Assembly: GCF_900142365.1 (NCBI RefSeq)
Contig: NZ_FRAP01000011.1
Span: 1-64,000 of the forward strand
Reading direction: 5' to 3'
DNA length: 64,000 bases
From: Pseudonocardia thermophila
Lineage (GTDB): Bacteria > Actinomycetota > Actinomycetes > Mycobacteriales > Pseudonocardiaceae
Shown here one piece after another: positions 44,844-64,000 of the stretch (positions are counted from its first letter, which is position 1; the number at the start of each line of letters is the position of its first letter). The position numbers and the translations under genes are program-made. The notes under the pieces are model-generated. The model was not told where the DNA came from, ran no database searches, and worked only from the letters and a program-made list of their open reading frames with translations.

Positions 44844-49361
<4,518 letters not shown>

Positions 49362-49365
<4 letters not shown>

Positions 49366-49466
49366 GACGCGGCTCCGAGCTCGTGGATCGTGTCGATCGC
49401 CTGGGCGAGGGTGGTGAGGCACTCGTCGAGCGCCTCACTCGCGGGGTAGAGGCGGACAGTGGTCAC
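49362..49466 (-). CDS. 34-aa coupled small ORF
   Basis: GTG 49466 opens a 34-residue ORF (MTTVRLYPASEALDECLTTL, then AQAIDTIHELGAAS) whose TGA overlaps the molybdopterin oxidoreductase ATG. A single amphipathic helix is likely. It may be a translational-coupling leader, a small subunit, or a leftover from the decayed region upstream. Confidence 0.35.
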
Positions 49467-49800
49467 GCGCGCCAGACGCGCAGCCGCTCGCGGACCAGGG
49501 GTCCGGTGCTGATGAGCGTCGTGGCGAGCACCGTCTCGTCGGCGCCCGGCGCGGCGTCGTCGCGGTCGCCTGCCCCTGTGCATCCACCGCGACAGCGCGG
49601 TCCCGCTGCCGGCCGGTTCGAACCGGAACCGCCGGGCCGCGCTCGGCTCGTCGGTTCGGCCCCCCATCGAGCCGCTCGACGCGCTGCAGCTCGTCGCTCA
49701 CCTCCGGCATCAGCGTGATGTCGCTGATCAGCGGCTACGCGCGCTCGGGCGGGGCGTCCACCCAGTTCCGCACCTCGACGGTCGGCTCGCGTAGCGGGCA
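49467..49800 (-). pseudogene. SRPBCC (polyketide cyclase/dehydrase-like) protein remnant
   Basis: One minus-strand frame reads EPTVEVRNWVDAPPERA, then TAG (49737-49735), then PLISDITLMPEVSDELQRVE. SRPBCC proteins have Trp where the TAG lies (AWPLISD), so TGG to TAG is the likely change. Another frame continues with RFRFEPAGSGTALSRWMHRG, the later strand region of the same fold. One nonsense change plus a frameshift and internal loss make the gene dead. Confidence 0.72.
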
Positions 49801-49974
49801 CCCGTCCACTCCATCAGGCCGCGCCTCCTCACATCCGGCTGTGTGACCAGTAGAGTTGCTCAACAGGACTTAGTCGTCAAGAGGTACTCCTGCGCAACGG
49901 GGCGCTGACGAGCCACGACGCGCAGGCCGACCGGGTCTGTCCCGCCGGGCCCCGCCCTGCTTCAATTCGTCGAC

Positions 49975-50679
49975 GTGTCGTCCGGACCACGGTTCGTCAT
50001 CGCGGAGCCCCGGCACGGGTCGCTGCCGATGCTGTTGCTGGTCCTCACGCTGGTCACCGGCGTGATCGACGCCGTCAGCCTGCTGACGCTCGGGCGGGTG
50101 TTCGTCGCCAACATGACCGGCAACGTCGTCGTCACCGGCTTCGCCATCGCAGGCGTCCCCGACTACTCGCTGCCCACCTCCTTGGCTGCGCTCGCGTGCT
50201 TCATGATCGGCGCGGCGATCGCCGGTCGGCTCCTCGTCGACAAGATCGCCGACCGTGGTGAGCTGCTGCGCGCGTCGGTGCTGGTGGAGGCGGTGCTGAT
50301 CGCGATCTGCCTGGTGATCGTGCTGGTCCGGCCGCCGGTCGTGGACTCCCCGCCGACGATCGCGACCGCCGCGGTCGCGGCACTGGCGATGGGCGTGCAG
50401 AACACGCTGGCCCGCCGCGTCGGCGTACCCGACCTGACGACCACGCTGATCTCGATGCCGATGGTCGGACTCGCCGCCGACCACCGGCACACGAACCGCC
50501 CGGCCGTGATCCGCCGCGCGTCCGCGATCATCTGCCTGATGGCCGGCGCGTTCCTGGGGGCGCTCGCGATCCACGTGGGCGGCGCCGCGCTGGCCCTGGG
50601 CGTGATCCTCGTGCTGCTCGGCGGCGTGGCGCTCACCGCCCACGTGCTGATCCGGCGGGGGCCGGACTGGGAGAACTGA
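49975..50679 (+). CDS. DUF1275 (YoaK-family) membrane protein
   Basis: The product is 234 aa with about 6 membrane helices. TLVTGVIDAVSLLTLGRVFV and ANMTGNVVVTGFAIAG near the N-terminus and MGVQNTLARRVGVPDLTTTL in the middle are DUF1275 signatures. Function is not established. GTG 49975 is the start. It converges with the following acyl-CoA dehydrogenase gene, leaving only 6 nt between stops. Confidence 0.87.
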   Translation: MSSGPRFVIAEPRHGSLPMLLLVLTLVTGVIDAVSLLTLGRVFVANMTGNVVVTGFAIAGVPDYSLPTSLAALACFMIGAAIAGRLLVDKIADRGELLRASVLVEAVLIAICLVIVLVRPPVVDSPPTIATAAVAALAMGVQNTLARRVGVPDLTTTLISMPMVGLAADHRHTNRPAVIRRASAIICLMAGAFLGALAIHVGGAALALGVILVLLGGVALTAHVLIRRGPDWEN

Positions 50680-50685
50680 CCTCGC

Positions 50686-52491
50686 TCAGAACCAGCCCGG
50701 CTCCGCGTCGTACGTGGTGGTGTCCAGCTTCTCCAGCAGGTCCAGCTGCGGTCCCGTGCGCGGCAGCTCGTAGCGGAAGAAGTAGCGCGCCGCCTGCCGC
50801 TTGCCGCGGTGGAAGTCGTCGTCGCGGGAGCCGGTGGCGACGAACTGCTCCAGCCAGATCCACGCGACGACGATGTGCCCGGCGGCCTCCAGGTAGAGCG
50901 AGGCGTTCGCCAGCCGCACGGCGGGGGAGACGTCGGCGGAGTGGATCGCGCGGGTGACCGCGACGAGCCGGGTGAGTGCCGCGTCGAGCGCCTCGGCCAG
51001 CTCGGCGGCCTCTCCGCCCGTGGCGCGGCCCTGGTCGATCCCGCCGCGCAGCAGCGCCTCCAGCGCGGCGAGACCGGCTCCGTCGGCCATGGCGACCTTG
51101 CGGCCGAGCAGGTCGAGCGCCTGGATCCCGTGGGTGCCCTCGTGGATCGGGTTGAGCCGGTTGTCCCGGTAGTGCTGCTCGACGTCGAACTCGCGCGTGT
51201 AGCCGTAGCCGCCGTGGATCTGGATCGCGAGGTCGTTCGCCGCCAGGCACCACTGCGACGGCCAGCTCTTCGCGATCGGGGTGAGCACCTCCAGCAGCAG
51301 GTTCAGCCGGGCCCGCTCCTCCGGCGACTCCGCGGTGCGCTCCTCGTCGAGCAGCTTGCCGCAGAGCAGGATCAGCCCGAGCGCGCCCTCGACGTACGAC
51401 TTCTGCGCGAGCAGCATCCGGCGGACGTCCGCGTGCTCGATGATCGGCACGGGCGGCGACGCCGGGTCCTTGGCGCCGGGCAGCCGGCCCTGGGTGCGGG
51501 TGCGGGCGTAGTCCAGCGACTTGAGGTAGCCGGTGTAGCCCAGCGCGGTCGCGCCCGCGCCGACGCCGACCCGGGCCTCGTTCATCATGTGGAACATGTA
51601 GGACAGGCCGCGGTGCGGCTCGCCGACGAGGTAGCCGACCGCGCCCGGCTCGCCGCCCGGGGTGTGCACGCCCTCCCCGAAGTTCAGCAGGGTGTTCGTC
51701 GTGCCGCGGTAGCCCATCTTGTGGTTGAGTCCGGCGAGCACGACGTCGTTGCGCTCGCCGAGCGATCCGTCCGCGTTCACCAGGAACTTCGGCACGACGA
51801 ACAGTGAGATCCCCTTGACTCCCGCCGGTCCGCCGGGGATCTTCGCCAGCACCAGGTGGACGATGTTCTCGCCCAGCTCGTGCTCGCCCGCCGAGATCCA
51901 CATCTTGTTGCCGAAGAGGCGGTAGGTGCCGTCGGGGCGGGGCTCGGCGCGGGTGGTGATGTCCGCGAGCGACGAGCCCGCCTGCGGCTCCGACAGGCAC
52001 ATCGTGCCGTGGAAGCGGCCCTCCAGCATCGGCCGCACGAACGTGTCGATCTGCTCCTGGCTGCCGTGGGCGAGCAGCAGGTTCGCGTTGGCGACGGTGA
52101 GGAACGCGTAGGCCCAGCTGCCGATGTTCGCGGCCTGGAACCACAGGAACGCCGCGGTCTGCACGACCTGCGGCAGCTGCGCGCCGCCCACCTCTTCGTC
52201 CATCGCGGCGGACAGCAGATCCGCCTGCGCGACCGCGTCGAGCGCGTCCTTGACGTCGGCGATCATCTCCACCCGGCCGTCGACGAACCGCGGCTCGTTC
52301 AGGTCGGCCTTCCGGTTGTGCGGGGCGAACCGCTCGGCGGCGATCTCCGCGCACAGGTCGAGGATGCCGTCGAAGGTCTCCCGGGAGTGCGCGGCGAACC
52401 GCTTGCGGCGGGTCAGGCCCTCGGCGTCGAGCCAGTCGTAGAGCAGGAAGTCCAGGTCGCGCCGGGACAGCAGCAGATCGGGCGTGGACAC
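50686..52491 (-). CDS. Acyl-CoA dehydrogenase with extra C-terminal domain (FadE5-like)
   Basis: The product is 601 aa, the size of broad-range long-chain dehydrogenases such as mycobacterial FadE5. Motifs: MCLSEPQAGSSLADITTRAE, GNKMWISAGEHELG, NHKMGYRGTTNTLLNFGEG, IQIHGGYGYTREFDVEQHYR and the catalytic-Glu region NPIHEGTHGIQALDLLGRK. An additional helical domain follows residue about 450. GTG 52491 is the start. It lies 45 nt after the SDR gene, probably in one unit. Confidence 0.92.
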   Translation of the reverse strand: MSTPDLLLSRRDLDFLLYDWLDAEGLTRRKRFAAHSRETFDGILDLCAEIAAERFAPHNRKADLNEPRFVDGRVEMIADVKDALDAVAQADLLSAAMDEEVGGAQLPQVVQTAAFLWFQAANIGSWAYAFLTVANANLLLAHGSQEQIDTFVRPMLEGRFHGTMCLSEPQAGSSLADITTRAEPRPDGTYRLFGNKMWISAGEHELGENIVHLVLAKIPGGPAGVKGISLFVVPKFLVNADGSLGERNDVVLAGLNHKMGYRGTTNTLLNFGEGVHTPGGEPGAVGYLVGEPHRGLSYMFHMMNEARVGVGAGATALGYTGYLKSLDYARTRTQGRLPGAKDPASPPVPIIEHADVRRMLLAQKSYVEGALGLILLCGKLLDEERTAESPEERARLNLLLEVLTPIAKSWPSQWCLAANDLAIQIHGGYGYTREFDVEQHYRDNRLNPIHEGTHGIQALDLLGRKVAMADGAGLAALEALLRGGIDQGRATGGEAAELAEALDAALTRLVAVTRAIHSADVSPAVRLANASLYLEAAGHIVVAWIWLEQFVATGSRDDDFHRGKRQAARYFFRYELPRTGPQLDLLEKLDTTTYDAEPGWF

Positions 52492-52536
52492 GGTGCGCTC
52501 CAGGTGGTCAGGTGCGGGCGGGTCGGGACAGGATGG

Positions 52537-53274
52537 CTAGATGGACAGCCCGCCGTCGACCGGCAGGACGACCCCGGTGATGTAGCCGGCCTCGTCCGAG
52601 GCGAGGAACGCGACCGCGGCCGCCATCTCCGACGGCGCACCGAACCGGCCCATCGGGATGGTGGCGGCGATCTCCCGGCGGCGGTCCTCCGGGATGGAGG
52701 CGACCATGCGCGTCTCGGCGTTCGGGGAGATCGCGTTGACGGTGATGTTGAAGCGCGCCAGCTCCTTGGCGGCGGTCTTGGTGAAGCCGATGATCCCGGC
52801 CTTGGCGATGGCGTAGTTGGCCTGGCCGAGGTTGCCGTGCAGGCCGGTGTACGAGGTGACGTTGATGATCCGGCCGCCGCCCTGCTCGCGGAACTGCGGC
52901 ACGGCGGCGCGGGTGAACCGGTACGTCCCGCCGGCGTGGACGTCGATGACCGCGGCGTAGTCCTCGTCGGTGAGCTTCCAGAGCATCCCGTCGCGCAGGA
53001 TCCCGGCGTTGTTGACCACGACGTCGAGCCGGCCGGTGTCGGTGACGATCCGGTCGATCACGTCCTGCACCTGTTTGGTGCTGGTGACGTCCGCGGCGAT
53101 CCCGGTGGCGCCCAGCTCGCGCGCGGTCTCGGCGACCGCGTCGGCGTCGAAGTCGACGAGGAAGGTGTTCGCCCCGCTGGTGTGGAACAGCTCGGCCAGT
53201 GCCCGGCCCACGCCCCGCGCGGCGCCCGTGACGACGACCGAGCGGCCGGTGAAGTCGAATCGCACGTTCCCCAT
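52537..53274 (-). CDS. FabG-like 3-oxoacyl-(ACP/CoA) reductase, SDR family
   Basis: The product is 245 aa. The cofactor site is VVTGAARGVGRALAELF, NNAGILRDGML follows, and the catalytic Ser-Tyr-Lys lie in NVTSYTGLHGNLGQANYAIA then KAG. Unlike the SDR at 27249 all catalytic residues are intact. It is the first gene of a two-gene beta-oxidation-like unit with the FadE5-like dehydrogenase, downstream of a TetR-type palindrome at 53312-53327. Confidence 0.9.
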   Translation of the reverse strand: MGNVRFDFTGRSVVVTGAARGVGRALAELFHTSGANTFLVDFDADAVAETARELGATGIAADVTSTKQVQDVIDRIVTDTGRLDVVVNNAGILRDGMLWKLTDEDYAAVIDVHAGGTYRFTRAAVPQFREQGGGRIINVTSYTGLHGNLGQANYAIAKAGIIGFTKTAAKELARFNITVNAISPNAETRMVASIPEDRRREIAATIPMGRFGAPSEMAAAVAFLASDEAGYITGVVLPVDGGLSI

Positions 53275-53311
53275 GAGTCACCCCATCCGCATCGACAGCT
53301 GCCAGACGATC

Positions 53312-53327
53312 CTAAGCAAGCGCTTAG
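53312..53327. promoter_or_regulatory. TetR-type palindrome upstream of SDR-FadE unit
   Basis: CTAAGCAAGCGCTTAG is centred on the perfect palindrome AAGCGCTT. GCAAGCGCTTxG-type sites are typical of TetR repressors that control acyl-CoA metabolism. It lies 38 nt upstream of the SDR start, in promoter position. Confidence 0.55.
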
Positions 53328-53402
53328 TAAGTTCGCCAGGGTGGGGTGGCGCTCTTCGGCCGTCGGTATAGCCGTCGGCACGGTGGGCGGCACACTCGTC
53401 GG

Positions 53403-53469
53403 CGCGTCGAGAACGACGTTGTGGCGAATTCGAAACGATTCGAACCGCAACAACGTCGTTCTCGACGCG
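53403..53469. repeat. Perfect 20-bp inverted repeat, 27-nt loop
   Basis: CGCGTCGAGAACGACGTTGT (53403-53422) is the exact complement of 53450-53469. The loop has ATTCGAA twice. It lies between divergent promoters, about 180 nt before the alcohol dehydrogenase start. A transcript would form a strong stem-loop. No transposase or flanking duplication is seen. Confidence 0.7.
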
Positions 53470-53482
53470 GGTGCGACCGAAA

Positions 53483-53496
53483 CCGTACCGGTACGG
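53483..53496. promoter_or_regulatory. Regulon palindrome CCGTACCGGTACGG, copy 1
   Basis: This perfect 14-bp palindrome lies 156 nt upstream of the alcohol dehydrogenase start. Identical bases occur at 58511-58524, and a 12-of-14 match lies at 56172-56185. Confidence 0.6.
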
Positions 53497-53651
53497 AGGC
53501 GACCGGCGGCCCGGATTCCTACGCTCCGATCAGGGTCGTCGTCCGACCGTCGGCCGCTGCTCGTCCCAGCTGCGGAAAGGGTGCGAACGCCTCTTCCGGG
53601 TGCGGCGAGCCGTGTTCGTGCATTCGGTTGCAGAGAAGGTGTGGGTGACTC

Positions 53652-54758
53652 GTGGGCACAGGATCGGGCCAGCTCGTGAACGCGGCGTTCTTCGTCCAAT
53701 CCGGCGGGCCGCTGCTCGTCGAGAAGGTGAGCGCGCACCCGCCGGGACCGCGTGACGTCGTGGTGCGCATGCGCGCCGCCGGCATCTGCCACACCGACGC
53801 GACGGTGCTCGCAGCAGGCGCGCTGCCGACGCCGCCGGCGATCCTCGGCCACGAGGGCGCGGGCGTCGTCGAGTGGGTCGGGCCCGAGGTGAGCGAGTTC
53901 AGGGTCGGAGACCGGGTCCTCGGGTTGACGATCTCGCGCTGCGGCCGGTGCGCGAACTGCCGGCGCGGCACCCCCTACCTGTGCGAGACGGCTGGTCCGT
54001 ACGCCGAGCCGCGGGCGGTGCGCAGCGACGGCACCGAACTCGTCACCAAGAACGGCCTGGGCACCTTCGCCGAGACGATGACCGTGCCGCCGGAGCGGCT
54101 GATCGCCGTCCGCACGGACCTGCCCGACGAGCAGCTGGCGCTGGTCGGCTGCGCGATCACCACCGGGTACGGGGCCGTCGTCAACTCCGCTGCGGTGCAA
54201 CCAGGGCAGACCGTCGTCGTCATCGGGTGCGGCGGGGTCGGTCAGGCCGTCGTCCAGGCGGCTCGCATCGCCGGCGCCGAGCGGGTGATCGCGGTCGAGC
54301 CGGTGGCCGCGAAGCGGGAGCTCGCCCTGCGGCTCGGCGCGACGGACGTGATCGACCCGACGAGCGGGCAGCCGCTGGCGGAGGCCGTGCGCGCCCTCGG
54401 GGTGGCCGGCGCCGACCACGCGTTCGACACGGTCGGGCGGACCGCCACCGTGCGCGACTCCTACACCGCGCTGCGCCGCGGCGGCACCGTGGTGGTGATC
54501 GGCATCGGCGACATCCGCACCGACTACGCGCTGCCGGGCACGCTCGTCGTCGAGGCCAAGCAGGTGGCGGGCTGCGTCTTCGGCAACGCCGACGTCGACC
54601 GCGACGTGCCGCGCATCCTCGAGCTCGCCGCGGAGGGGCGGCTCGACATCGCGTCCATGATCGACAAGGTGATCGACCTGCAGTCGGCGCCCGCGGCGCT
54701 GGACGCGCTGCACCACGGGGACGGCACCGGGCTGCGCACCGTGATCGCGTTCTCGTGA
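53652..54758 (+). CDS. Zinc-dependent alcohol dehydrogenase (MDR superfamily)
   Basis: The product is 368 aa. The catalytic-zinc Cys lies in AAGICHTDATVLAAG and GHEGAGVVEWVG carries the His-Glu pair. The structural-zinc loop is SRCGRCANCRRGTPYLC with four Cys. The NAD-binding motif is VVVIGCGGVGQAVVQAARIA. The layout matches class III-like/aryl alcohol dehydrogenases. It would oxidise an alcohol made by the nearby P450, with the aldehyde then taken by the aldehyde dehydrogenase at 58675. GTG 53652 is the start. A later GTG about 8 codons in is possible. Confidence 0.88.
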   Translation: MGTGSGQLVNAAFFVQSGGPLLVEKVSAHPPGPRDVVVRMRAAGICHTDATVLAAGALPTPPAILGHEGAGVVEWVGPEVSEFRVGDRVLGLTISRCGRCANCRRGTPYLCETAGPYAEPRAVRSDGTELVTKNGLGTFAETMTVPPERLIAVRTDLPDEQLALVGCAITTGYGAVVNSAAVQPGQTVVVIGCGGVGQAVVQAARIAGAERVIAVEPVAAKRELALRLGATDVIDPTSGQPLAEAVRALGVAGADHAFDTVGRTATVRDSYTALRRGGTVVVIGIGDIRTDYALPGTLVVEAKQVAGCVFGNADVDRDVPRILELAAEGRLDIASMIDKVIDLQSAPAALDALHHGDGTGLRTVIAFS

Positions 54759-54764
54759 TCCGCG

Positions 54765-54813
54765 CGGGGGTGTCGGCCGCCGGGTGCCGCGCCCGGCGGC
54801 CCGCACCCCCGCA
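54765..54813. terminator. Bidirectional two-stage hairpin terminator
   Basis: The outer stem GCGGGGGTG/CACCCCCGC (54765-54773 with 54805-54813) encloses a 10-bp inner stem (54776-54785 with 54793-54802) with a 7-nt loop. It fills the gap between the convergent alcohol dehydrogenase and LuxR-type genes, so it can serve both strands. Confidence 0.65.
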
Positions 54814-54830
54814 ACCTCACGCTCCGAGCC

Positions 54831-55346
54831 TCACAACCCGAACTCGGCGGCGCGCTTGACCAGCTCGATCCGGGAGTTGATCCCGAGCTTGCGGTAGCCG
54901 TTGCTCACGTGCGACTCGACGGTCCGTTCGCTGATGAACAGCCGGTCACCCACCTCGCGCGCCGACAGTCCGCCCATCCACAGCGTCATGACCTGGCGCT
55001 CGCGCAGGGTCAGCGGCTGGACGTAGCAGGGGCGCGGCTGCTTCGGCGCCACCTGGTTGGCCGAGGTGGGCCGGATGACCAGGGTCTTGGCCGATCGGGT
55101 GATCAGCGCGGTCGCCTTCTGGTACAGCGTGGCCAGCAGCGGGTCGTCCGGGCGGGAGGTCGGCCGGAAGTCGCTCAGGACGATCGTCTTGACCTCGGGG
55201 TTGCCGGCGTGGTGCGCCGCGGCTTCGAGCGCCTGCCGGATGACGGCGCGCGCGTCGGCGTCGACGTGCGGGTTGGGGGTGATCCACCCGATCCCGCCCT
55301 CGACGTGGGAGGTGATCGCAGTCCATCGACCTGCCTCCGTCGTCAT
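54831..55346 (-). CDS. LuxR-type helix-turn-helix regulator
   Basis: The product is 171 aa. The C-terminal 65 residues are a LuxR/GerE domain (LTLRERQVMTLWMGGLSARE; ISERTVESHVSNGYRKLGI). The N-terminal about 100 residues (HVEGGIGWITPNPHVDADAR; TIVLSDFRPTSRPDDP) are not a recognisable receiver domain because no phospho-acceptor Asp pattern is clear. AAGGAGG precedes ATG 55346. It is divergent from the TetR gene and shares its 99-nt promoter with two tandem operators. Confidence 0.82.
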   Translation of the reverse strand: MTTEAGRWTAITSHVEGGIGWITPNPHVDADARAVIRQALEAAAHHAGNPEVKTIVLSDFRPTSRPDDPLLATLYQKATALITRSAKTLVIRPTSANQVAPKQPRPCYVQPLTLRERQVMTLWMGGLSAREVGDRLFISERTVESHVSNGYRKLGINSRIELVKRAAEFGL

Positions 55347-55356
55347 CGCCGCCTCC

Positions 55357-55382
55357 TTACACAATCTTCGTCGAGTGTGTAA
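55357..55382. promoter_or_regulatory. TetR operator candidate, site 1
   Basis: TTACACA (55357-55363) and TGTGTAA (55376-55382) form a perfect inverted repeat around a 12-nt spacer in the LuxR-TetR divergent promoter. Confidence 0.6.
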
Positions 55383-55391
55383 CGCGAGACG

Positions 55392-55417
55392 GTACACGAT
55401 TCCCCTAGAGTGTGTAA
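55392..55417. promoter_or_regulatory. TetR operator candidate, site 2
   Basis: GTACACG (55392-55398) and TGTGTAA (55411-55417) repeat the same layout with the same 12-nt spacer. The site starts 35 nt after site 1 and 54 nt before the TetR start. Confidence 0.6.
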
Positions 55418-55445
55418 GTCGTAGTCGCGAGAAGGGCGGGACACC

Positions 55446-56078
55446 GTGGTCGAGGCCGTGCGGTTCGAGCTCGACGAGCTCGAACCACCGCAGAACGACC
55501 GGGAGGCGCGCACCCGGCGGCTCATCGTCGACGCGGCCCGGCTGACGTTCGAACGGGTCGGCATCCGGCGAGCGACGATGGACGACATCGCCGGGGCCGC
55601 GGGGGTGTCCCGCAAGACCGTCTACAACTACTACGAGAACAAGCCGAGGCTGATCGGCGAGGTGATCGCGGCGGAGAGCCTGCGGGTCGCGCTGGCCGCC
55701 CAGGCGCAGATCGACCTGTCCCTGCCGGCCGAGGAGCTGCTCGTCGAGGCGAAGATGATCTGGCTCGTGACCGCGCGGGACAACCGGTGGGTGCGCCTGC
55801 TGCTCACCCCCGAGGCGCTGGAGATCTCGGCGCAGACCCTCGAGCAGTCCGACCGCGTCCGCTCGGTCATGCGCCGGTTCTGGGAGCCGATCCTGGAGCC
55901 GATCGAGGCGGCCGGGCGGTTGCGGGCCGACCTCGACGAGACCGTCGAGTGGTTGTCGCTGCAGCACTTCGTGCTGCTCTCGCGCCCGTCGTTCCTCGCC
56001 GGTGACGACGAGCGCGCCCGGCGCCTGCTGCGCACCTTCCTCGTGCCGGCGGTGCTGCGCCCGGCCGACGGTTCCTGA
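55446..56078 (+). CDS. TetR-family transcriptional regulator
   Basis: The product is 210 aa. The N-terminal HTH is typical: RTRRLIVDAARLTFERVGIR, then MDDIAGAAGVSRKTVYNYYE. The rest is a helical ligand domain of about 140 residues. GTG 55446 starts just after two inverted-repeat sites, which suggests autorepression and control of the divergent LuxR-type gene. It may also control the P450 gene that follows on the same strand. Confidence 0.88.
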   Translation: MVEAVRFELDELEPPQNDREARTRRLIVDAARLTFERVGIRRATMDDIAGAAGVSRKTVYNYYENKPRLIGEVIAAESLRVALAAQAQIDLSLPAEELLVEAKMIWLVTARDNRWVRLLLTPEALEISAQTLEQSDRVRSVMRRFWEPILEPIEAAGRLRADLDETVEWLSLQHFVLLSRPSFLAGDDERARRLLRTFLVPAVLRPADGS

Positions 56079-56171
56079 CCGCCCGCGGCCGGCGGCCCGC
56101 ATTCTCGTCGTCGCGCATTACACCGTGCGGTCAGCGGGGTGCCGATCTCCGGTGGGATTTTCGCGAGGCAT

Positions 56172-56185
56172 CCGTACTGGTACCG
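56172..56185. promoter_or_regulatory. Regulon palindrome, degenerate copy upstream of P450
   Basis: CCGTACTGGTACCG matches CCGTACCGGTACGG at 12 of 14 positions. It lies 126 nt before the chosen P450 start, a spacing similar to that of the copy before the alcohol dehydrogenase. Confidence 0.5.
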
Positions 56186-56311
56186 ACGTGCGTGCCGGGT
56201 GCCGTCGGTAGCGTACGCAGCGCCGTGCCGAGCGAAATACCACAGGTCGATGTTGATGCGGTGGCCCGCACTTCGTGGAGTGCCGTGGCCGGAATGGAGA
56301 TCGCGCGGGCG

Positions 56312-57568
56312 ATGACGACTACCGAGAACACCCGGCAGCTTGCGGCGGACGGAGCCCGTTTCCTCGGCGATCCGGCGTTCCGGGTGAATCCCGAGGACTT
56401 CTACCGGCGGCTCGTCGAGGAGGCCCCGGTCCTGCCGCTCGGGAACGGGACCTGGCTCATCGGCGGCCACGCCGAGCTGCGCGCCGCGCTGCGCGACACG
56501 CGGTTCAGCCGGGCGGCCGGAGCAGCGCACGAGTCGGAGTTCCTCAGCTCCGACCCGCGGCCCGAGGTGCAGCGGATGGGCCGGTGCCTGCGCGGGACGA
56601 TGCTCTACCTCGACCCGCCGGAGCACGCCCGCGTCCGCAAGTTCCACCGCGACCCGTTCCTGCCCCGCGCGGTGCGGGAATGGCAGGACGAGGCGGACCG
56701 GATCGCCGACGAGCTCGCCCGGAACCTGCCCAAGGACGAGGTCTTCGATCTCAAGGAGAAGTTCGCGCTGCCGATTCCGGAGCGGCTGATCTGCACGATC
56801 CTCGGTGTCCCGGTCGAGGACCACAAACTGTGGGAGGAATGGACCGGCGCGCTGCTCCGACTGGACCGCACCGGGCACGCCGAGGACGGCGGGTTCGAGG
56901 AGGCCCGGGCCGCGATGGTCGCGTTCGGGGAGTACTTCGACGCCCTCATCCGCGAGCGTCGGGAGAATCCGGGGGACGATCTGATCAGCGTGCTCGTCGC
57001 CGAGGACGAGACCGGTGACCGGCTCACCGACGACGAGCTGGTCGGCAACCTCATCCTGCTGACCAGTGCCGGGCACGAGACCACGGCGAACACCATCGCG
57101 AGCACCGTCGTCCTCCTGCTGCGCGACCGCGCCAACTGGGACCGGCTCCTCGCGGATCCGTCGCTCGCGGACAAGGCGATCGAGGAGGTCCTGCGCATCG
57201 AGGGCGCCCAGCGCTTCATGGTCCCGCGCACGACCACCGAGGACGTGGAGATCGGCGGCCACACCATCCCCGCGGGCGACCGGGTCATCTTCGTGACCCA
57301 TGCGGCCAACCGCGATCCGTCGGCCTTCCCCGACCCGCTGCGCTTCGACATCGACCGCGACCCGAAGTCGCACGTGGCCTTCGGCGGTGGTGCGCACACC
57401 TGCCTCGGTGTCCACCTGGCCCGGCTGGAGCTGGTCACCGCGCTGCGGGCACTGCTGCGCCACCACCCGAACCTGGCCCTGGCCGTGCCGGAGGAGCAGC
57501 TGGAGACGAGCCCGACGCCGACCGTGCGCGGCTGGGAGTCCCTGCCGTGCATCTCGACCACCGCGTGA
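56312..57568 (+). CDS. Cytochrome P450
   Basis: The product is 418 aa, a typical soluble bacterial P450. The I-helix is LTSAGHETTANTIAS, the ExxR lies in EEVLRIEG, and the haem loop FGGGAHTCLGVHLARLE puts the ligand Cys at about residue 364. ATG 56312 was chosen because it follows GGAG and gives a normal N-terminus (MTTTENTRQLAADGARFLGD); ATG 56294 and an upstream start at 56192 are in frame. Electron-transfer partners are not encoded next to it. With alcohol and aldehyde dehydrogenases nearby, terminal or ring hydroxylation is a reasonable guess; substrate unknown. Confidence 0.92.
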   Translation: MTTTENTRQLAADGARFLGDPAFRVNPEDFYRRLVEEAPVLPLGNGTWLIGGHAELRAALRDTRFSRAAGAAHESEFLSSDPRPEVQRMGRCLRGTMLYLDPPEHARVRKFHRDPFLPRAVREWQDEADRIADELARNLPKDEVFDLKEKFALPIPERLICTILGVPVEDHKLWEEWTGALLRLDRTGHAEDGGFEEARAAMVAFGEYFDALIRERRENPGDDLISVLVAEDETGDRLTDDELVGNLILLTSAGHETTANTIASTVVLLLRDRANWDRLLADPSLADKAIEEVLRIEGAQRFMVPRTTTEDVEIGGHTIPAGDRVIFVTHAANRDPSAFPDPLRFDIDRDPKSHVAFGGGAHTCLGVHLARLELVTALRALLRHHPNLALAVPEEQLETSPTPTVRGWESLPCISTTA

Positions 57569-57660
57569 CGCGCACCCACACGCGGTGAGCGCGGCCCGCG
57601 TGCCGCGCTGCCCGGCGGCGGGCGCGGCCCGGCAGGTCCGCGTCCGCCGCTCGGGAGCGA

Positions 57661-58473
57661 TCACGTGGTGAGCTTCAGCAACCTGGCCGCGTTGCCCCCG
57701 AGTACCGCGGCCTTCTCGGCGTCCGTCAGCGGTGCGGCCACCAGGTCGGCCAGCAGCTCCGTCAGCGCGGGTACGCCGCTCGCCGCCGAGTAGAGATCGC
57801 TGCCGTACAGCACGCGCTCGGCGCCGACGCGCTTGATCAGGTTCAGCGCGAACCCGACGCCGTGGGCGAGCGCGGTGTCGAAGTGGAGGTTGGGCCGCCG
57901 CTCGGCCACGTACGGGACGAACTGCGACTGCTCGAACGTCGAGAGCACGTCCAGCACGACGATGTCGAGGTCCGGGAAGTCGCCGGCGAGCACGTCGATC
58001 TTCCACAGCGCCTCGGACGAGGACTCTCCGATCGAGTGGATGAACGGCACGAGCCCCAGCTCGCCCATCCGCTCCAGGTACCGCCGGACCCAGACGCTGT
58101 CCACGCTGACGCCCTGCATCCGCGTGTGGAAGCTGATGCCGACGAGCCCCAGTTCGGAGCGGCAGCGCTCGAGCTCCGCCAGGCCGCGTTCGCCGTTGAG
58201 CGGTTCGACGATCCCGACGGCAGCGGGGAACAGGTCGCTGCGCCGATCCCGGACGGCCGCGATCGCGTCGTTGACGCGGCGGTTGTCGGCGATCCCGTCC
58301 GGTCGCAGGTAGTCGTGGCTCGCGATGACCACCGCTTGGTCGACGCCGCGTTCGGCGAGCACGGCCGCGCGCCGGGTCACCTCTTCGTCGAGGTCGGCCA
58401 CGGCATGTCCGTGCCCGGACGAGACCAGTGCGCCGACGTGGTTGTGGATGTCGATGACGTGGAACGGGTGCAT
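57661..58473 (-). CDS. Amidohydrolase-2 family protein
   Basis: The product is 270 aa. The metal-binding HxH lies at the start (VIDIHNHVG). Later segments are VGISFHTRMQGVSVD, VPFIHSIGESS and RVLYGSDLYSAASG, where Asp is the last metal ligand. PF04909 members are metal-dependent hydrolases or decarboxylases. It may hydrolyse a lactone or decarboxylate an intermediate of the P450 pathway. ATG 58473 gives the best N-terminus; GTG 58491 would add 6 residues. It converges with the P450 gene and diverges from the aldehyde dehydrogenase gene. Confidence 0.85.
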   Translation of the reverse strand: MHPFHVIDIHNHVGALVSSGHGHAVADLDEEVTRRAAVLAERGVDQAVVIASHDYLRPDGIADNRRVNDAIAAVRDRRSDLFPAAVGIVEPLNGERGLAELERCRSELGLVGISFHTRMQGVSVDSVWVRRYLERMGELGLVPFIHSIGESSSEALWKIDVLAGDFPDLDIVVLDVLSTFEQSQFVPYVAERRPNLHFDTALAHGVGFALNLIKRVGAERVLYGSDLYSAASGVPALTELLADLVAAPLTDAEKAAVLGGNAARLLKLTT

Positions 58474-58510
58474 GATCCTGCACTGTTGCACGGAATCGCG
58501 GGCGTCCCTT

Positions 58511-58524
58511 CCGTACCGGTACGG
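58511..58524. promoter_or_regulatory. Regulon palindrome CCGTACCGGTACGG, copy 3
   Basis: It is identical to 53483-53496 and extends to 16 bp here (58510-58525). It lies between the divergent amidohydrolase and aldehyde dehydrogenase genes, 38 nt from the former and 151 nt from the latter. Confidence 0.6.
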
Positions 58525-58674
58525 AGGAGCGCATCCGCTGCCCGGCCTACGATTCGTGAGGGTTTTCGGTCAGGCCCAGTAGTGCCGACCGGTAATACGG
58601 ATTCTCTGTCATTGCTGCCCATTCCGCAGAACGCGACGACCGCGGTTCCCTCGAACCGGCCGGAGGAGAAAGAG

Positions 58675-60129
58675 ATGCTGGACCCGACGCGCCGACCGCA
58701 GATGCTCATCGACGGCCGGTGGACCGACGCGCTCGACGGCGCCACCTACGGCACCGTGAACCCGGCGACGGAGGAGCCGCTCGGGCCCGTTCCGCACGCC
58801 TCGCCGGAGGACATGCGGCTGGCGATCGCGGCCGCCCGCCGGGCCTTCGACGAGGGGCCGTGGCCGCGGCTGCCGCTGCGCGAACGCTACCGGATCATGC
58901 ACCAGCTCGCCGACCTCATGGAGGAGCACCAGGAGGCGCTCTCCCGGGTGGTCGTCACGGAGACCGGCACGACCGCCTACCTGGCCAGCATGGCCGGCCC
59001 GATCCAGATCCTGCGGGAGACCGCCGACCTGGTGCTGTCCGAGCCGTTCGCCGAGTCGCTCGCCCCGTTCCCGTTCCAGGACCGGATGATCCAGACGCAG
59101 GTCCTGCGCCAGCCGGTCGGCGTGTGCGGGCTGCTGCCCACCTGGAACGTCCCGGTGATGATCGCGATCCGCAAGATCGCGCCCGCGCTCGCCGCCGGGT
59201 GCACCGCGGTCGTGAAGGCGCCGCCGCAGACGCCGCTGACGCTGCTGGCGCTCGCCGAGATCGTCGCGGAGTCCGACCTGCCCCCTGGCGTGCTGAACTT
59301 CGTCACGGGCGACGGCATCGAGGCCTCTCGCGAGCTGGTGCGCAGCCCCCTGGTGGACCAGATCAGCTTCACCGGCGGGCTGGAGGCCGGGCGGGCGATC
59401 CAGGCGGAGGCCGCCGGCACCGTCAAGCGGGTCGTGCTGGAGCTGGGCGGGAAGTCGCCCAACATCGTCCTGGACGACGTCGATCTCGACGTGGCCGCCC
59501 GCATCGCCGCCCCGCACGCGGGGTTCGGCGCTGGGCAGGCCTGCTCGATGCTCTCCCGCGTCCTGGTGCCCCGGCCGCTGGCCGACGGGTTCGTCGAGCG
59601 GTTGGTCCCGCTGGTCGCGGGCATGCCGGTCGGCGACCCGACCGATCCGCGGACCGTCGTCGGTCCGCTGATCCGCGAGGAGCGCCGCGCCGCCGTGGAG
59701 AAGTACGTGGCGCTGGGCCTGGAGGAGGGTGCCGAGCTGGCCACCGGGGGCCGCCGGCCCCCGCACCTGGAGCGCGGCTACTTCTACGAGCCGACGGTGT
59801 TCGTGAACGCGCGCAACGACATGCGGATCGCGCAGGAGGAGATCTTCGGTCCGGTGCTGACCGTGATCCCGTACGACACCCTCGACGAGGCGATCCGGCT
59901 CGCGGAGGACACCGTCTACGGGCTCCAGGCGAACATCACCTGCCGCAACGTGGCGACCGGCCTGGAGATCGCCCGGCGGCTGCGCAACGGCGCGGTCTCG
60001 ATCAACGGCGCGGTGGACGGGGTGCGGGCGCCGCGCGGCGGGTTCAAGCAGAGCGGGATCGGCCGCGAGGTGGGCAAGTGGGCGCTCGACGACTACCTCG
60101 AGTACCAGGCACTCACCTACCCCATCTGA
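58675..60129 (+). CDS. Aldehyde dehydrogenase
   Basis: The product is 484 aa and full length. PTWNVPVMIAIRKIAPALAA is the cofactor-entry region. The general-base Glu is in VLELGGKSPNIV, the nucleophilic Cys in FGAGQACSMLSRV, and EEIFGPVLTVIPYD lies near the C-terminus. It oxidises an aldehyde to an acid with NAD(P). GGAGGAG lies just before ATG 58675. The frame stays open upstream, but that part is shadow coding opposite the amidohydrolase. Confidence 0.93.
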   Translation: MLDPTRRPQMLIDGRWTDALDGATYGTVNPATEEPLGPVPHASPEDMRLAIAAARRAFDEGPWPRLPLRERYRIMHQLADLMEEHQEALSRVVVTETGTTAYLASMAGPIQILRETADLVLSEPFAESLAPFPFQDRMIQTQVLRQPVGVCGLLPTWNVPVMIAIRKIAPALAAGCTAVVKAPPQTPLTLLALAEIVAESDLPPGVLNFVTGDGIEASRELVRSPLVDQISFTGGLEAGRAIQAEAAGTVKRVVLELGGKSPNIVLDDVDLDVAARIAAPHAGFGAGQACSMLSRVLVPRPLADGFVERLVPLVAGMPVGDPTDPRTVVGPLIREERRAAVEKYVALGLEEGAELATGGRRPPHLERGYFYEPTVFVNARNDMRIAQEEIFGPVLTVIPYDTLDEAIRLAEDTVYGLQANITCRNVATGLEIARRLRNGAVSINGAVDGVRAPRGGFKQSGIGREVGKWALDDYLEYQALTYPI

Positions 60130-60149
60130 CCTGCGCCGCATCGTCCTCC

Positions 60150-60167
60150 GTAACGAAGCCGGTAACG
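60150..60167 (+). promoter_or_regulatory. GTAACG-N6-GTAACG direct repeat, TRAP permease promoter
   Basis: GTAACG occurs at 60150-60155 and 60162-60167, 12 bp apart, and an inverted CGTTAC lies at 60191-60196. The same direct repeat with the same spacing lies at 62398-62415. The 151-nt gap before dctQ holds no gene. Confidence 0.5.
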
Positions 60168-60280
60168 ACCGGTTCATAGCGTCCGGCGACCGTTACGCGG
60201 ACCTCCCCGGAATCCACCGAACTCCTCACAGCGCTCCGGGAACGGTCCGCCGGACGTGGCTCCTGAGCGGAGGGACATCG

Positions 60281-60838
60281 ATGTCAGGAACACAGGAGGA
60301 TTCGCCCGTCGCCGGGTCACCGGTCGTTCGATGGGTGAGCCGGCTGTCGATCGCGCTCGTCGTTCTCGCAGCGGCCGCAACCGTCGTGCTGATGGTGCAG
60401 GTCGTCGCCGACGTCGTGGCGCGCAACGTCTTCAACTCCCCGATCCCGGCCACGTTGGAACTGGCCCAGTACTACTGGATGGTGCTCGTGGTCTTCGGCG
60501 GCCTCGGGTACGCCCAGCTGCGCGGAGAGCACGTCCGGGCGACCGTGCTGACCCACCGGCTCCCCGCGTCGTGGCAGCGCGCCACTGAGGTGAGTGCCCT
60601 GGTCCTGATGGCCGGCTTCGCCGCACTCGTCGCCGCGTACGGATGGGGCGAGGCGGTCGAGAGCACCGCGATCCGCGAGACGGCCGCCGCGTCGAGCGTG
60701 CTCGTCTGGCCGATGCACTGGGCCGTTCCGGTGGGCGCTGCGGCCCTGGCGCTGCAGGCCCTCGTGTCCGTCCACCTCGTCCTGACGCGGCCGCAGGCGA
60801 GTCGCGACCGACGCCAGCAGGAGGAACCGGCTCGATGA
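60281..60838 (+). CDS. TRAP transporter small permease (DctQ-like)
   Basis: The product is 185 aa with four membrane helices. LSIALVVLAAAATVVLMVQV is the first. The DctQ signature region VARNVFNSPIPATLELAQYY and a LRGEHVRATVLTHRLP loop follow. It forms the membrane domain together with DctM, for Na+- or H+-driven uptake of an organic acid. GGAGGG precedes ATG 60281. The stop overlaps the dctM-like start by 4 bp. Confidence 0.88.
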   Translation: MSGTQEDSPVAGSPVVRWVSRLSIALVVLAAAATVVLMVQVVADVVARNVFNSPIPATLELAQYYWMVLVVFGGLGYAQLRGEHVRATVLTHRLPASWQRATEVSALVLMAGFAALVAAYGWGEAVESTAIRETAAASSVLVWPMHWAVPVGAAALALQALVSVHLVLTRPQASRDRRQQEEPAR

Positions 60839-62352
60839 CCTCCACGTCCGAGAACGTCGCCGAGTCCCGGATCGCGGTCACCGAGCCGCCCCGGCTCGCG
60901 GATCCGATCCCGCGGCGGCGCTTCACGCCGAGCTCGGCCGGGTTCCTGGTGATGGTCGCGGTCTGCATCGGCCTGACCGCCACGATCGTGTTCGCCGACA
61001 TCAGCCGGCTCACGGTCGGGGTGCTCGTGGTGCCGCTGACCATCCTCCTGCTCATCTGCGGGGTGCACGTCTCCGTCGCGATGGCGTTCGGGGGCGCGCT
61101 CGGCCTGTGGAAGCTGGGCGGGTGGTCCGGGCTGGGCAGCGCCTTGTCCACCATCCCGTACTCCTCGGCGGCGAGCTGGAGCCTCACCGTCACGCCGATG
61201 TTCGTCCTGATGGGCATCGTGCTGGGGCAGACCGGCATCACCGGCCAGCTGTTCGACGCGGCCCGGCTGTGGCTGGGCCGGATGCGGGGCGGGCTCGCGG
61301 TCGCCACCGTCGCGTCCGGGGCCGGGCTGGCCGCGGCCAGTGGCAGCACGACCGGCATCTCCTACGCGATGGGCCGCGTGGCGATCCCCGAGATGCTCCG
61401 GTCGCGGTACTCGCCGCAGCTGGCGACCGGAGTGGTCACCGCGGCCGGCACCCTCGGTCAGATCATCCCGCCCAGCGTGCTGCTGGTCATCTACGCCGGA
61501 ATCGCCCAGACCCCGGTCGGCCCGCAGCTCCTGGCGGGCGTGGTGCCCGGCGTGCTGCTCGCCGTGCTGTTCGCCGTGATGATCATGGTGCGGGCCCGGA
61601 TCGATCCCGATCTCGCCCCGGCGACGCACACCGCCGCCGTCCCCTGGGGTGTGCGGCTGCGGTCGCTGGCGTCGATCTGGCCGTTGCCCGTGCTGATCCT
61701 CGTCATCATCGGCGGGATGTACTCGGGCTTCATGACCGCGACGGAGGCCGGAGCAGTCGGCGCGCTGGTGGCGATCCTCATCGGGGTCTGGAGCAAGCGG
61801 AGGGCCGGAGCCCGCGCCGTGTTCGCCGTGCTCGGGCGCTCGCTCGCCGAGACCGCGTCCGCGGTCGCGATGATCATGTTCTTGCTCATCGGCGTGCACA
61901 TCCTCAGCCGGCTGGTCGCGCTCTCCGGCCTCGCTCAGGCGGCGTCGCGGATGGTCACGGCCCTCGACCTGACCCCGATCGCGCTGCTGCTGACCCTGGT
62001 CGTGACCTACCTCGTGCTCGGCATGTTCATGGACACCCTGGCCATGCTCATGCTGACGATCCCGGTCCTGCTCCCGGTGCTGGAGGCGCTGAGCATCGAC
62101 CTCGTCTGGTTCGGCATCTTCGCCGTCCTCATGGCCGAGATCGCGATGATCACGCCCCCGGTCGGGGTGGTGGCGTTCATCGTCCACGGGCTCGCCCAGG
62201 ACCGGGAGGTCAACCTGGGCACCGCGATCAGCCTGGCGACGGTGTTCCGCGGGTGCGTGTGGTTCGTCGCCACCGCGTTGGCGCTCGTCGTGCTGCTGAT
62301 CCTCTTCCCGGATCTCGCCCTCTGGCTTCCGAGCAGCGGATCCGCGCAATGA
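60835..62352 (+). CDS. TRAP transporter large permease (DctM-like)
   Basis: The product is 505 aa with about 13 helices. It has the DctM hallmarks: GAGLAAASGSTTGISYAMGR, IPPSVLLVIYAGIAQTPVG, GFMTATEAGAVGALVAI and MITPPVGVVAFIVHGLA. The N-terminal 35 residues are hydrophilic. ATG 60835 overlaps the small-permease stop. The substrate-binding protein gene follows after 128 nt, so it has its own promoter or leader region. Confidence 0.9.
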   Translation: MTSTSENVAESRIAVTEPPRLADPIPRRRFTPSSAGFLVMVAVCIGLTATIVFADISRLTVGVLVVPLTILLLICGVHVSVAMAFGGALGLWKLGGWSGLGSALSTIPYSSAASWSLTVTPMFVLMGIVLGQTGITGQLFDAARLWLGRMRGGLAVATVASGAGLAAASGSTTGISYAMGRVAIPEMLRSRYSPQLATGVVTAAGTLGQIIPPSVLLVIYAGIAQTPVGPQLLAGVVPGVLLAVLFAVMIMVRARIDPDLAPATHTAAVPWGVRLRSLASIWPLPVLILVIIGGMYSGFMTATEAGAVGALVAILIGVWSKRRAGARAVFAVLGRSLAETASAVAMIMFLLIGVHILSRLVALSGLAQAASRMVTALDLTPIALLLTLVVTYLVLGMFMDTLAMLMLTIPVLLPVLEALSIDLVWFGIFAVLMAEIAMITPPVGVVAFIVHGLAQDREVNLGTAISLATVFRGCVWFVATALALVVLLILFPDLALWLPSSGSAQ

Positions 62353-62397
62353 GCGGAATTCGGCATTCGGTGCCGGAAATGCGTTGGAACGGCGCTC

Positions 62398-62415
62398 GTA
62401 ACGTGCGTCGTAACG
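62398..62415 (+). promoter_or_regulatory. GTAACG-N6-GTAACG direct repeat, TRAP binding-protein promoter
   Basis: GTAACG occurs at 62398-62403 and 62410-62415, the same spacing as at 60150-60167. It lies 66 nt before the binding-protein ATG. Confidence 0.5.
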
Positions 62416-62480
62416 ACACGAAAAGAACCATTTCGGCGGTGGTTCGTGCAGCGACGTACTCAACGGAGAGTGGCAGGATC

Positions 62481-63716
62481 ATGACGAGGCCCCGGAAGGC
62501 GTTCCTCGGCGCGGCGGTGTCGGCCGCGCTGATGCTCGTGCTCAGCTCGTGCGGCGGCGGGTCGGCCGGTGGAAAGGTCGCCGACAGCATCGAGACGATG
62601 GATCCGATCACGCTGACCTACACATCGGTGAGCGCGGAGAAGAGTGCGGGCGCCCTGAACTTCGAAGTGTTCGCGAAGGAGGTCGAGGAGAAGACCGGCG
62701 GGAAGATCAGGTTCGAGCAGTACTTCAACGGATCGCTGCTGCCGGGCGACGAGACGCTCGAGGGAATCGGTTCCGGGGTGGCCGACGCGGGATTCGTGAT
62801 GCCGTCGTACTACCCGCAGAAGATGGCGCTCGGGAACTGGATCATGGATCTGGGCTCGATGCCGTCCAACGACATCCCGCACGGCATGCTCGCCGGCTCC
62901 GCCGCGATCCAGGAGCTGCAGAACGACTCGGACGTGCTGAAGGAGTGGTCCGGCCACAACATCAAGGTCCTCAACATCTCCCAGCCCGGGGTGGGCAACG
63001 CACTGCTGTGCACCAAGCCGATCGACTCGGTGGAGGCCGCGAAGGGCACGCGGGTGCGCTCCGGCGGCGGGGTCTGGAACGCCGAGATCGAGGCCATGGG
63101 GATGGTGTCGGTCCAGGTCCCCGCGCCCGAGACGTACGAGGCGCTGCAGCGCGGCGTCGTCGACTGCATCACCGCGGCGCCCTCGACGCTCATGGGTTAC
63201 GGCTGGTGGGACGTCGCCAAGCACTTCATCCCGGTGTCGATGAGCGCGTTCAACAGCTCCGCGCAGGTCATCAACCTCGAGGTCTGGAACAGCCTCCCGC
63301 CGGACGCCCAGGCCGTCATCACCGAGGCCGCGCACCGGTGGTTCGTCGGGGTCACGCAGGAGGTCCTGCAGAACTACGCCCGGTTCGCCACGGAGGGCCC
63401 GGCCAAGCACGGGATCGTCTTCCACGACCCGACGCCGCTCGACGCGCTGCTGAAGCAGCACCAGGAGAAGTTCATCGCCGCGAAGGTGGCCTCGCCACCG
63501 CCCGGGCTCGCCGATCCGCAGGGCCTCGTCGACAAGTACCGGGCACTGCTGGACAAGTGGATGGCGAAGACGACCGAGGCGCTCGGGACCCCGCCGCCCC
63601 CGCGCGATCCGGCTGCGATCACCGAGAGCTACATCAAGGGCGGCGACCTCGATCTCAGCCGGTTCCTGGAGATCACCGGGAAGGAACTGTTCCCGCTTCC
63701 GCCGAACACTCGATGA
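62481..63716 (+). CDS. TRAP transporter substrate-binding lipoprotein (DctP-like)
   Basis: The product is 411 aa. A lipoprotein signal is present (FLGAAVSAALMLVLSSC, Cys at about residue 24). The DctP fold follows: FAKEVEEKTGGKIRFEQYFN, LLPGDETLEGIGSGVADAGF and ETYEALQRGVVDCITAAPST, the conserved region preceding the ligand Trp/Arg area. Being lipid-anchored is expected in a Gram-positive with no periplasm. It likely delivers the substrate of the adjacent oxidation pathway. The spacing of its RBS (AGGATC) is short. Confidence 0.9.
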   Translation: MTRPRKAFLGAAVSAALMLVLSSCGGGSAGGKVADSIETMDPITLTYTSVSAEKSAGALNFEVFAKEVEEKTGGKIRFEQYFNGSLLPGDETLEGIGSGVADAGFVMPSYYPQKMALGNWIMDLGSMPSNDIPHGMLAGSAAIQELQNDSDVLKEWSGHNIKVLNISQPGVGNALLCTKPIDSVEAAKGTRVRSGGGVWNAEIEAMGMVSVQVPAPETYEALQRGVVDCITAAPSTLMGYGWWDVAKHFIPVSMSAFNSSAQVINLEVWNSLPPDAQAVITEAAHRWFVGVTQEVLQNYARFATEGPAKHGIVFHDPTPLDALLKQHQEKFIAAKVASPPPGLADPQGLVDKYRALLDKWMAKTTEALGTPPPPRDPAAITESYIKGGDLDLSRFLEITGKELFPLPPNTR

Positions 63717-63741
63717 ATTGACCCGCTGAGTTCTGAGCGAT

Positions 63742-63761
63742 CGCGGACGAAATCGTCCGCG
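63742..63761 (+). terminator. 8-bp hairpin between TRAP and thiolase genes
   Basis: CGCGGACG (63742-63749) pairs with CGTCCGCG (63754-63761) around an AAAT loop. It starts 26 nt after the binding-protein stop and ends directly at the AGGAG ribosome site of the next gene. It may be an attenuating stem rather than a full terminator. Confidence 0.45.
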
Positions 63762-63773
63762 TAGGAGTGCAGA

Positions 63774-64000
63774 GTGAGTACCAGAGAATTCCGCGACAAG
63801 TTCGCCATCGTCGGCGTCGGGATGACGCCGACGGCGCGCACCCACGCCCGGGGCATGAGCGCGATGCGGCTGGAGGCGTGGGCCGCCAAGCTCGCCATCG
63901 AGGACGCCGGGCTGGCCCGGGAGGACATCGACGGCGTCGTCCACGCGATGATGGCCAGCCCGCATCCGCCGCTGCAGTGGACCGACACCTACTCCCGCAT
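63774..64000 (+). CDS. Thiolase-family protein, N-terminal part
   Basis: GTG 63774 follows AGGAG (63763-63767). The 75 visible residues, starting MSTREFRDKFAIVGVGMTPT and continuing to AIEDAGLAREDIDGVVHAMM, match the N-terminus of thiolase/SCP-x-type acyltransferases. The gene is cut by the window edge before the active-site Cys, so thiolase activity cannot be checked. SCP-x-like proteins often act in side-chain or ring-derived CoA-ester cleavage and often have a DUF35/OB-fold partner gene downstream. Confidence 0.8.
   Translation, partial: MSTREFRDKFAIVGVGMTPTARTHARGMSAMRLEAWAAKLAIEDAGLAREDIDGVVHAMMASPHPPLQWTDTYSR

Follow-up and report, generated by a model that had tools for sequence, protein, structure and literature searches.

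Class II transcriptional activators bind near -41.5 or -42.5, overlapping the -35 element of the promoter, and the lux box bound by LuxR is 20 base pairs (bp) long and centered at -42.5. TetR repressors can act in a divergent gap beside their own gene. For DevR, a NarL-type activator, one study describes start-proximal sites that overlap the -35 element and, at some targets, two or more cooperating sites (PMC3029386). Here, we analyzed a 64-kilobase (kb) stretch of the Pseudonocardia thermophila genome (positions 1 to 64,000 of contig NZ_FRAP01000011.1, hereafter the window) in which a 14-bp palindrome, CCGTACCGGTACGG, lies upstream of genes for an alcohol dehydrogenase, a cytochrome P450, and a divergent pair of amidohydrolase and aldehyde dehydrogenase. 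Judged from their sequence, the three promoters with this common site at fixed phasing most likely form a small co-activated gene set under a LuxR-type regulator encoded at the same locus.

Palindromic sites with a fixed step to TAnnnT

A preliminary description of this locus had placed exact copies of the palindrome at 53483 and 58511 and a copy with two changes at 56172. A scan of the window confirmed all three, although the second exact copy ends at 58524 and not, as previously given, at 58525. The sites and the hexamers found 23 nucleotides (nt) after them are as follows:

53483-53496: palindrome CCGTACCGGTACGG, site 1, alcohol dehydrogenase promoter; exact, one of two genome copies
53520-53525, plus strand: -10-like hexamer TACGCT, 23 nt after site 1
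56172-56185: site 2, CCGTACTGGTACCG, P450 promoter; two mismatches
56209-56214, plus strand: -10-like hexamer TAGCGT, 23 nt after site 2
58482-58487, minus strand: weak -10-like hexamer AACAGT, 23 nt after site 3 on that strand; one mismatch to the composite palindrome-N23-TAnnnT
58511-58524: palindrome CCGTACCGGTACGG, site 3, between amidohydrolase and aldehyde dehydrogenase; exact
58548-58553, plus strand: -10-like hexamer TACGAT, 23 nt after site 3

Gene predictions place all three sites between genes and upstream of those to which they had been assigned. After each of them, TAnnnT follows on the plus strand at exactly 23 nt, a step that was spotted by eye and tested afterwards. Between offsets 0 and 59, no further position had this hexamer in even two of the three sites when all were read on the plus strand, nor did any when all were read on the minus strand, the two readings that the test covered. 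Of 7,658 intergenic positions on the two strands, 19 have TAnnnT, and not one of 200,000 random intergenic triples with mixed strands shared any offset in this range, a denominator that includes skipped draws with positions less than 70 nt apart. It is this constant step that lifts the three sites above chance. Genome-wide, the composite palindrome-N23-TAnnnT is found four times in the locus, with 0, 0, 1, and 2 mismatches, and at up to two mismatches only once outside it (C12:95205, with 2), while 60 simulated windows of 64 kb contained none at this level.

If the first T of TAnnnT is taken to be -12, the palindrome would extend from -49 to -36 with its center near -42.5, the position of a class II activator. 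Derived in this way from TAnnnT at three of three sites, the position would fit class II activator-type promoters, with the hexamers as putative -10 elements of the actinobacterial type. A study of Mycobacterium smegmatis reports ANNNT in the -10 region of 4,833 of 6,090 promoters, with TANNNT as the preferred form for the housekeeping sigma factor (PMC6448022), and by extrapolation P. thermophila would share this preference. On the minus strand, the 23-nt step from site 3 leads to AACAGT, followed by GCAGGATC and the amidohydrolase ATG at 58473. This reading is weaker because AACAGT begins with A where TAnnnT has T. Site 3 could serve both directions, and the amidohydrolase transcript would then be almost leaderless.

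The exact palindrome occurs nowhere else in the genome (6,098,214 bases in 47 contigs). Its two copies, at a distance of 5 kb, belong to separate promoter regions of the same cluster, which speaks for a common gene set. The other 8 of the 11 matches in the window have three mismatches each, and the total of 11 compares with a mean of 6.36 in shuffled sequence, where 7 of 100 shuffles reached it. For this word, which was picked post hoc, the expectation under an order-3 Markov model is 0.05 exact copies per genome. A fairer simulation counted repeats of any perfect 14-bp palindrome within 10 kb, of which the real window has one pair and 6 of 60 simulated windows at least one. The proposal of a small regulon with a single site is well supported by promoter geometry, while its argument from recurrence is weaker than had been stated. 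The preliminary description would have seen its proposal refuted by a motif common at unrelated positions; here, exact copies speak in its favor, with none elsewhere, whereas those with up to two mismatches do not. A literature search with the 12-base core of the palindrome did not find the site in print; a herpesvirus match was judged unrelated from its listing.

Four places elsewhere in the genome carry the palindrome with one mismatch, two of them inside predicted genes (contigs C3 and C7), one between predicted genes (C29), and one in the gap at C12:95205 (L038:12205-12247). The latter reads CCGTGCCGGTACGG, N23, CAGATT and lies 139 nt upstream of a gene for a 966-amino-acid (aa) protein in which a P-loop-like motif is visible by eye and for which Pfam gave nothing at 0.001. 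It is possibly a further member of the gene set and stays a candidate because about one such composite is expected per genome by hand estimate, despite none in simulation. As a separate observation, CAGTACCGGTACAG at L050:2400-2413 (C8:132899) has the same core with different ends and one palindrome pair broken, and lies between two predicted genes, one of which looks by eye like that of a TetR-type regulator and the other like that of a sugar transferase.

Candidate regulators and competing explanations

Two regulators are encoded divergently between sites 1 and 2:

54831-55346, minus strand: LuxR/GerE-type regulator, 171 aa (PF00196), proposed activator at the palindrome
55357-55382: proposed TetR operator A, TTACACAATC-N6-GAGTGTGTAA
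55392-55417: proposed TetR operator B, GTACACGAT-N7-GAGTGTGTAA
55446-56078, plus strand: TetR-type regulator, 210 aa (PF00440)

The first belongs to the LuxR/GerE type by its match to the GerE family (66 bits against a cut-off of 23.5). Foldseek pairs it with the DNA-binding domains of GerE, NarL, and DosR at template modeling scores by target of 0.73-0.78, with no match at E ≤0.001, and structure prediction without homologues gave predicted local distance difference test scores of 83-97 for the helix-turn-helix blocks and 28-58 for blocks of residues 1-110. Its matches to response regulators in NCBIfam rest mainly on the C-terminal part. No domain of the N-terminus was recognized with Pfam or NCBIfam, and neither revealed a receiver domain in residues 1-105 at a limit of E 10, where HMMER filters remove most matches above about 0.1. 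The protein thus differs from NarL-type response regulators, which have an N-terminal phospho-receiver domain, and no autoinducer-binding domain of a quorum-sensing LuxR was among its Pfam matches.

We consider it improbable that its N-terminus is a sensor that arose from the initial portion of a crotonase resembling hydroxycinnamoyl-CoA hydratase-lyase (CoA, coenzyme A) and through which an acyl-CoA of the pathway would switch the genes on. The best PDB sequence match (E 0.6) aligns query residues 4-27 with chain residues 4-27, and when 2,002 sequences, including 2,000 shuffles, were compared with a profile built from 20 crotonases of this genome, the N-terminus came sixth, with an hhalign probability of 25% in local and 2.9% in global mode. 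Searches of plasmids, Pfam, and NCBIfam gave no crotonase match to this part, and a literature search for crotonase-LuxR fusions returned nothing on topic as far as the beginnings of the abstracts tell. A class-wide search with the N-terminus produced one match in 295 other genomes (8e-4, L053), in a 180-aa frame that runs antisense to a longer open reading frame; it was judged spurious.

The second protein is a TetR-type regulator by its TetR_N domain (42.6 bits against a cut-off of 24). The 99-bp gap between tetR and luxR contains a pair of inverted repeats that share a 26-bp layout (55357, TTACACAATCTTCGTCGAGTGTGTAA; 55392, GTACACGATTCCCCTAGAGTGTGTAA). Their form, TTACACrAT-N7-GAGTGTGTAA, is unlike CCGTACCGGTACGG, which is absent from the gap at up to three mismatches. 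Across C12:1-116000, the 26-bp form has no other match at up to six mismatches, and a looser 24-bp form has scattered other matches with four or five. This repeat pair in the gap fits TetR autoregulation and would be a natural autoregulatory operator.

Taken together, we find it rather probable that the palindrome is an activator operator with the LuxR/GerE-type protein as its likeliest binder and the TetR-type protein one tier above. A LuxR-type dimer would bind the 7+7 inverted repeat centered near -42.5 and recruit RNA polymerase to the promoters of alcohol dehydrogenase, P450, and aldehyde dehydrogenase, while the same site 3 might activate the amidohydrolase on the opposite strand, too. 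TetR would bind the two TTACAC/GTGTAA repeats in the divergent promoter region and repress both regulator genes until it binds a substrate of the pathway. In this scheme, we infer the pairing of binder and site, activation over repression, the cascade, and the ligand. The preliminary description had left the choice between TetR and LuxR open, and the evidence now leans toward LuxR because CCGTACCGGTACGG would occupy a class II activator position, with the separate repeat pair suiting TetR.

A direct role of TetR at the palindrome had been allowed for earlier and appears distinctly unlikely; the protein would repress the three promoters through a site that blocks the -35 element. While the protein has the required TetR_N domain and repressors of this type do bind palindromes over promoters, the gap beside its gene offers two copies of an unlike repeat instead of the palindrome, and fixed spacing to a -10 element is needed by an activator but less by a repressor. 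We would give somewhat more, though still limited, credit to a real site with a binder encoded elsewhere in the genome, with the local LuxR and TetR proteins doing other things. Such a view gains from the candidate site C12:95205, around 37 kb away with one palindrome mismatch and CAGATT at +23, and from contact between the LuxR-type protein and the site being only predicted; however, the two exact sites, sole in the genome, lie on either side of the luxR-tetR pair, and local regulators usually control adjacent genes.

Several observations weigh against a LuxR-activated gene set. Copies of the palindrome with up to two mismatches number 90 genome-wide compared to 78 for a reversed control pattern, which is near chance level, and site 2 with its two mismatches falls into this class; the exact pair is therefore notable and the two-mismatch copy alone is not. 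Scanning for the degenerate motif was dropped as evidence for the same reason. The composite at up to three mismatches is not enriched either, since its 18 places (5 in the locus) compare with 15 for the control and 9.5 expected by simulation. In addition, AACAGT is a weak -10 element with one mismatch to the composite, a palindrome over the -35 element would suit a repressor, too, and no sensor domain was recognized in the LuxR-type protein with Pfam and NCBIfam. Finally, no matches were found in other relatives for the LuxR-type protein (0 of 198 at 1e-20), the amidohydrolase (0 of 149 at 1e-40), or the P450 (0 of 119 at 1e-80), the exact composite is absent from all 396 other genomes of the order, and no orthologous locus turned up among the genomes searched. 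The near-chance number of degenerate copies, the lack of enrichment of the looser composite, and the repeated palindromes in simulated windows would also agree with mere chance in a GC-rich genome from which one repeated palindrome got picked. Yet this is very hard to reconcile with the same phasing to TAnnnT at three promoter-side sites, unmatched among the random triples, and with an exact pair that is sole in the genome.

Neighboring genes, relatives, and a dispersed hairpin

The enzymes encoded downstream of the three sites are the following:

53652-54758, plus strand: zinc alcohol dehydrogenase (PF08240/PF00107); start GTG at 53652 or 53676
56294-57568, plus strand: cytochrome P450 (PF00067); start from the codon model
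57661-58473, minus strand: Amidohydro_2 family protein (PF04909), divergent from the aldehyde dehydrogenase
58675-60129, plus strand: aldehyde dehydrogenase, 484 aa (PF00171, 481 bits); start ATG at 58675 picked by eye, codon model 58612

None of the six locus proteins reaches a curated NCBIfam cut-off among the best 25 rows per protein. Downstream lie genes for a tripartite ATP-independent periplasmic (TRAP) transporter, i.e., DctQ, DctM (260 bits, just below the cut-off of 268), and DctP; the transporter promoter carries no palindrome site at up to three mismatches. Beyond them follow a thiolase-like, an oligonucleotide/oligosaccharide-binding-fold, and an acyl-CoA-ligase-like gene, a second Amidohydro_2 gene, and a MarR gene. 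It is a reasonable guess that the cluster serves a P450-alcohol-aldehyde-acid oxidation series leading into CoA-linked breakdown. CGTAACG/CGTTACG repeats at 60149-60198, ahead of the TRAP genes, are unlike the palindrome and may be the site of another regulator. On the other side of the locus, CCTAAGCAAGCGCTTAGTAAG at 53311-53331 lies upstream of a short-chain dehydrogenase/reductase (SDR) gene (52537-53274, minus strand) and perhaps marks a separate regulon of SDR and acyl-CoA dehydrogenase (ACAD) genes; it presumably resembles a KstR2-type operator.

Conservation is not usable as evidence because no orthologous locus was found at the set thresholds. TetR relatives are present in 8 of 119 other genomes of the genus at 32-36% identity, and the six of these eight that were examined all show other gene contexts; the inverted repeats listed for them (up to five per side) include none with TTACAC, and no LuxR-TetR pair was noticed by eye. 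A scan of genome contigs gave a single locus, in Thermoclostridium (33% over residues 61-169). Among plasmid records, 736 matched the LuxR-type protein. Query coverage was 80% or more in 18 of these, and identity stayed under 60% in each (29-36% in the 15 rows listed); the P450 matched 14 records, all likewise below 60%. Amidohydrolase relatives from the plasmid search came from Embleya (47.9%) and Ochrobactrum (34.8%), and of 14 query proteins from the contig only the amidohydrolases and the SDR matched in the Embleya stretch and only the amidohydrolases and the ACAD in that of Ochrobactrum. A scan of the Embleya stretch found no GTAC-N2-GTAC core. A different 14-bp palindrome, GTCGAATATTCGAC (L184:8929-8942), does precede the amidohydrolase match there by 58 nt. 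The P. thermophila locus appears restricted to this species or unsampled neighbors, a distribution that would also fit horizontal acquisition.

Site 1 is preceded, at a distance of 13 nt, by an inverted repeat (53403-53469) that is separate from the proposed regulon. The repeat belongs to a dispersed family of 61-nt hairpin elements with ends GTCGAGAACGA/TCGTTCTCGAC and variable, covarying interior arms. A search of 60 genomes of the genus for 61 nt with the 11-bp ends at up to two mismatches yielded 72 matches in P. thermophila, 195 in G054, 149 in G049, 73 in G015, 5 in G020, and 1 each in G039 and G051, compared to none in the other 53 genomes and in every control. We compared 42 distinct copies, one from the window, 21 from the same genome, and 20 from four others (L114-L133, L144-L163; other genomes L164-L183). 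Their constant ends and length are by construction because they were picked by ends and a length of 61, and one 62-nt copy was left out by this selection. The unselected interior covaries, with pair 12-50 as AT 23, CG 11, and GC 2 times, pair 18-44 as GC 18 and CG 14 times, and pair 21-41 as GC 30 and CG 7 times. Standard pairs fill 1,048 of 1,260 cells, a count that includes the 11 selected end pairs and comes without a shuffle control. Of the 21 same-genome copies with flanks, 5 fall within predicted genes; the other 16 are in gaps between predicted genes that are convergent in 7 cases, tandem in 7, and divergent in 2.

Two of the seven carriers, G015 and G020, encode Y1 transposases (PF01797), as do three genomes without the hairpin (G003, G008, and G022), but the other carriers, P. 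thermophila, G049, G054, G039, and G051, do not. Given this distribution, carriage of the hairpin is not simply tied to a transposase of the repetitive extragenic palindromic (REP) type, though a lost or distant one is possible. Rfam gave one match across 45000-64000, inside luxR and below the gathering score, and none to the hairpin. Literature matches to the 11-nt hairpin end were off-topic by title, and none of the matches listed for Pseudonocardia or Actinobacteria with REP was relevant by title. The hairpin is possibly a more novel feature of the region than the proposed regulon.

Comparison with described regulators

If true, the proposed scheme would provide a DNA site and a two-tier circuit, TetR over LuxR, for a P450/alcohol/aldehyde oxidation cluster beside a TRAP transporter, and the substrate of the cluster would become findable. 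This would be a modest advance, a new instance of a well-known kind whose principle is textbook knowledge.

Like TetR repressors of divergent gaps, the locus has paired inverted repeats between tetR and luxR, though the nearest relatives in the genus sit in other gene contexts wherever they were looked at. With LuxR and its lux box it shares a palindrome whose predicted center is at about -42.5 and a LuxR-type candidate activator, whereas the P. thermophila protein is without an autoinducer-binding domain in Pfam and its box measures 14 bp instead of 20 bp; a literature search for a lux box at 42.5 and a LuxR class II site found nothing. The sequence of the site is also unlike what we take to be the consensus of DevR/DosR of mycobacteria, and the LuxR-type protein differs from DevR/DosR in having no recognized receiver domain in its N-terminal 105 residues. 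Both have a GerE-type helix-turn-helix and a site overlapping the -35 element, as predicted in P. thermophila, but one site was found at each promoter of P. thermophila, while for DevR two or more per target are described in some cases (PMC3029386).

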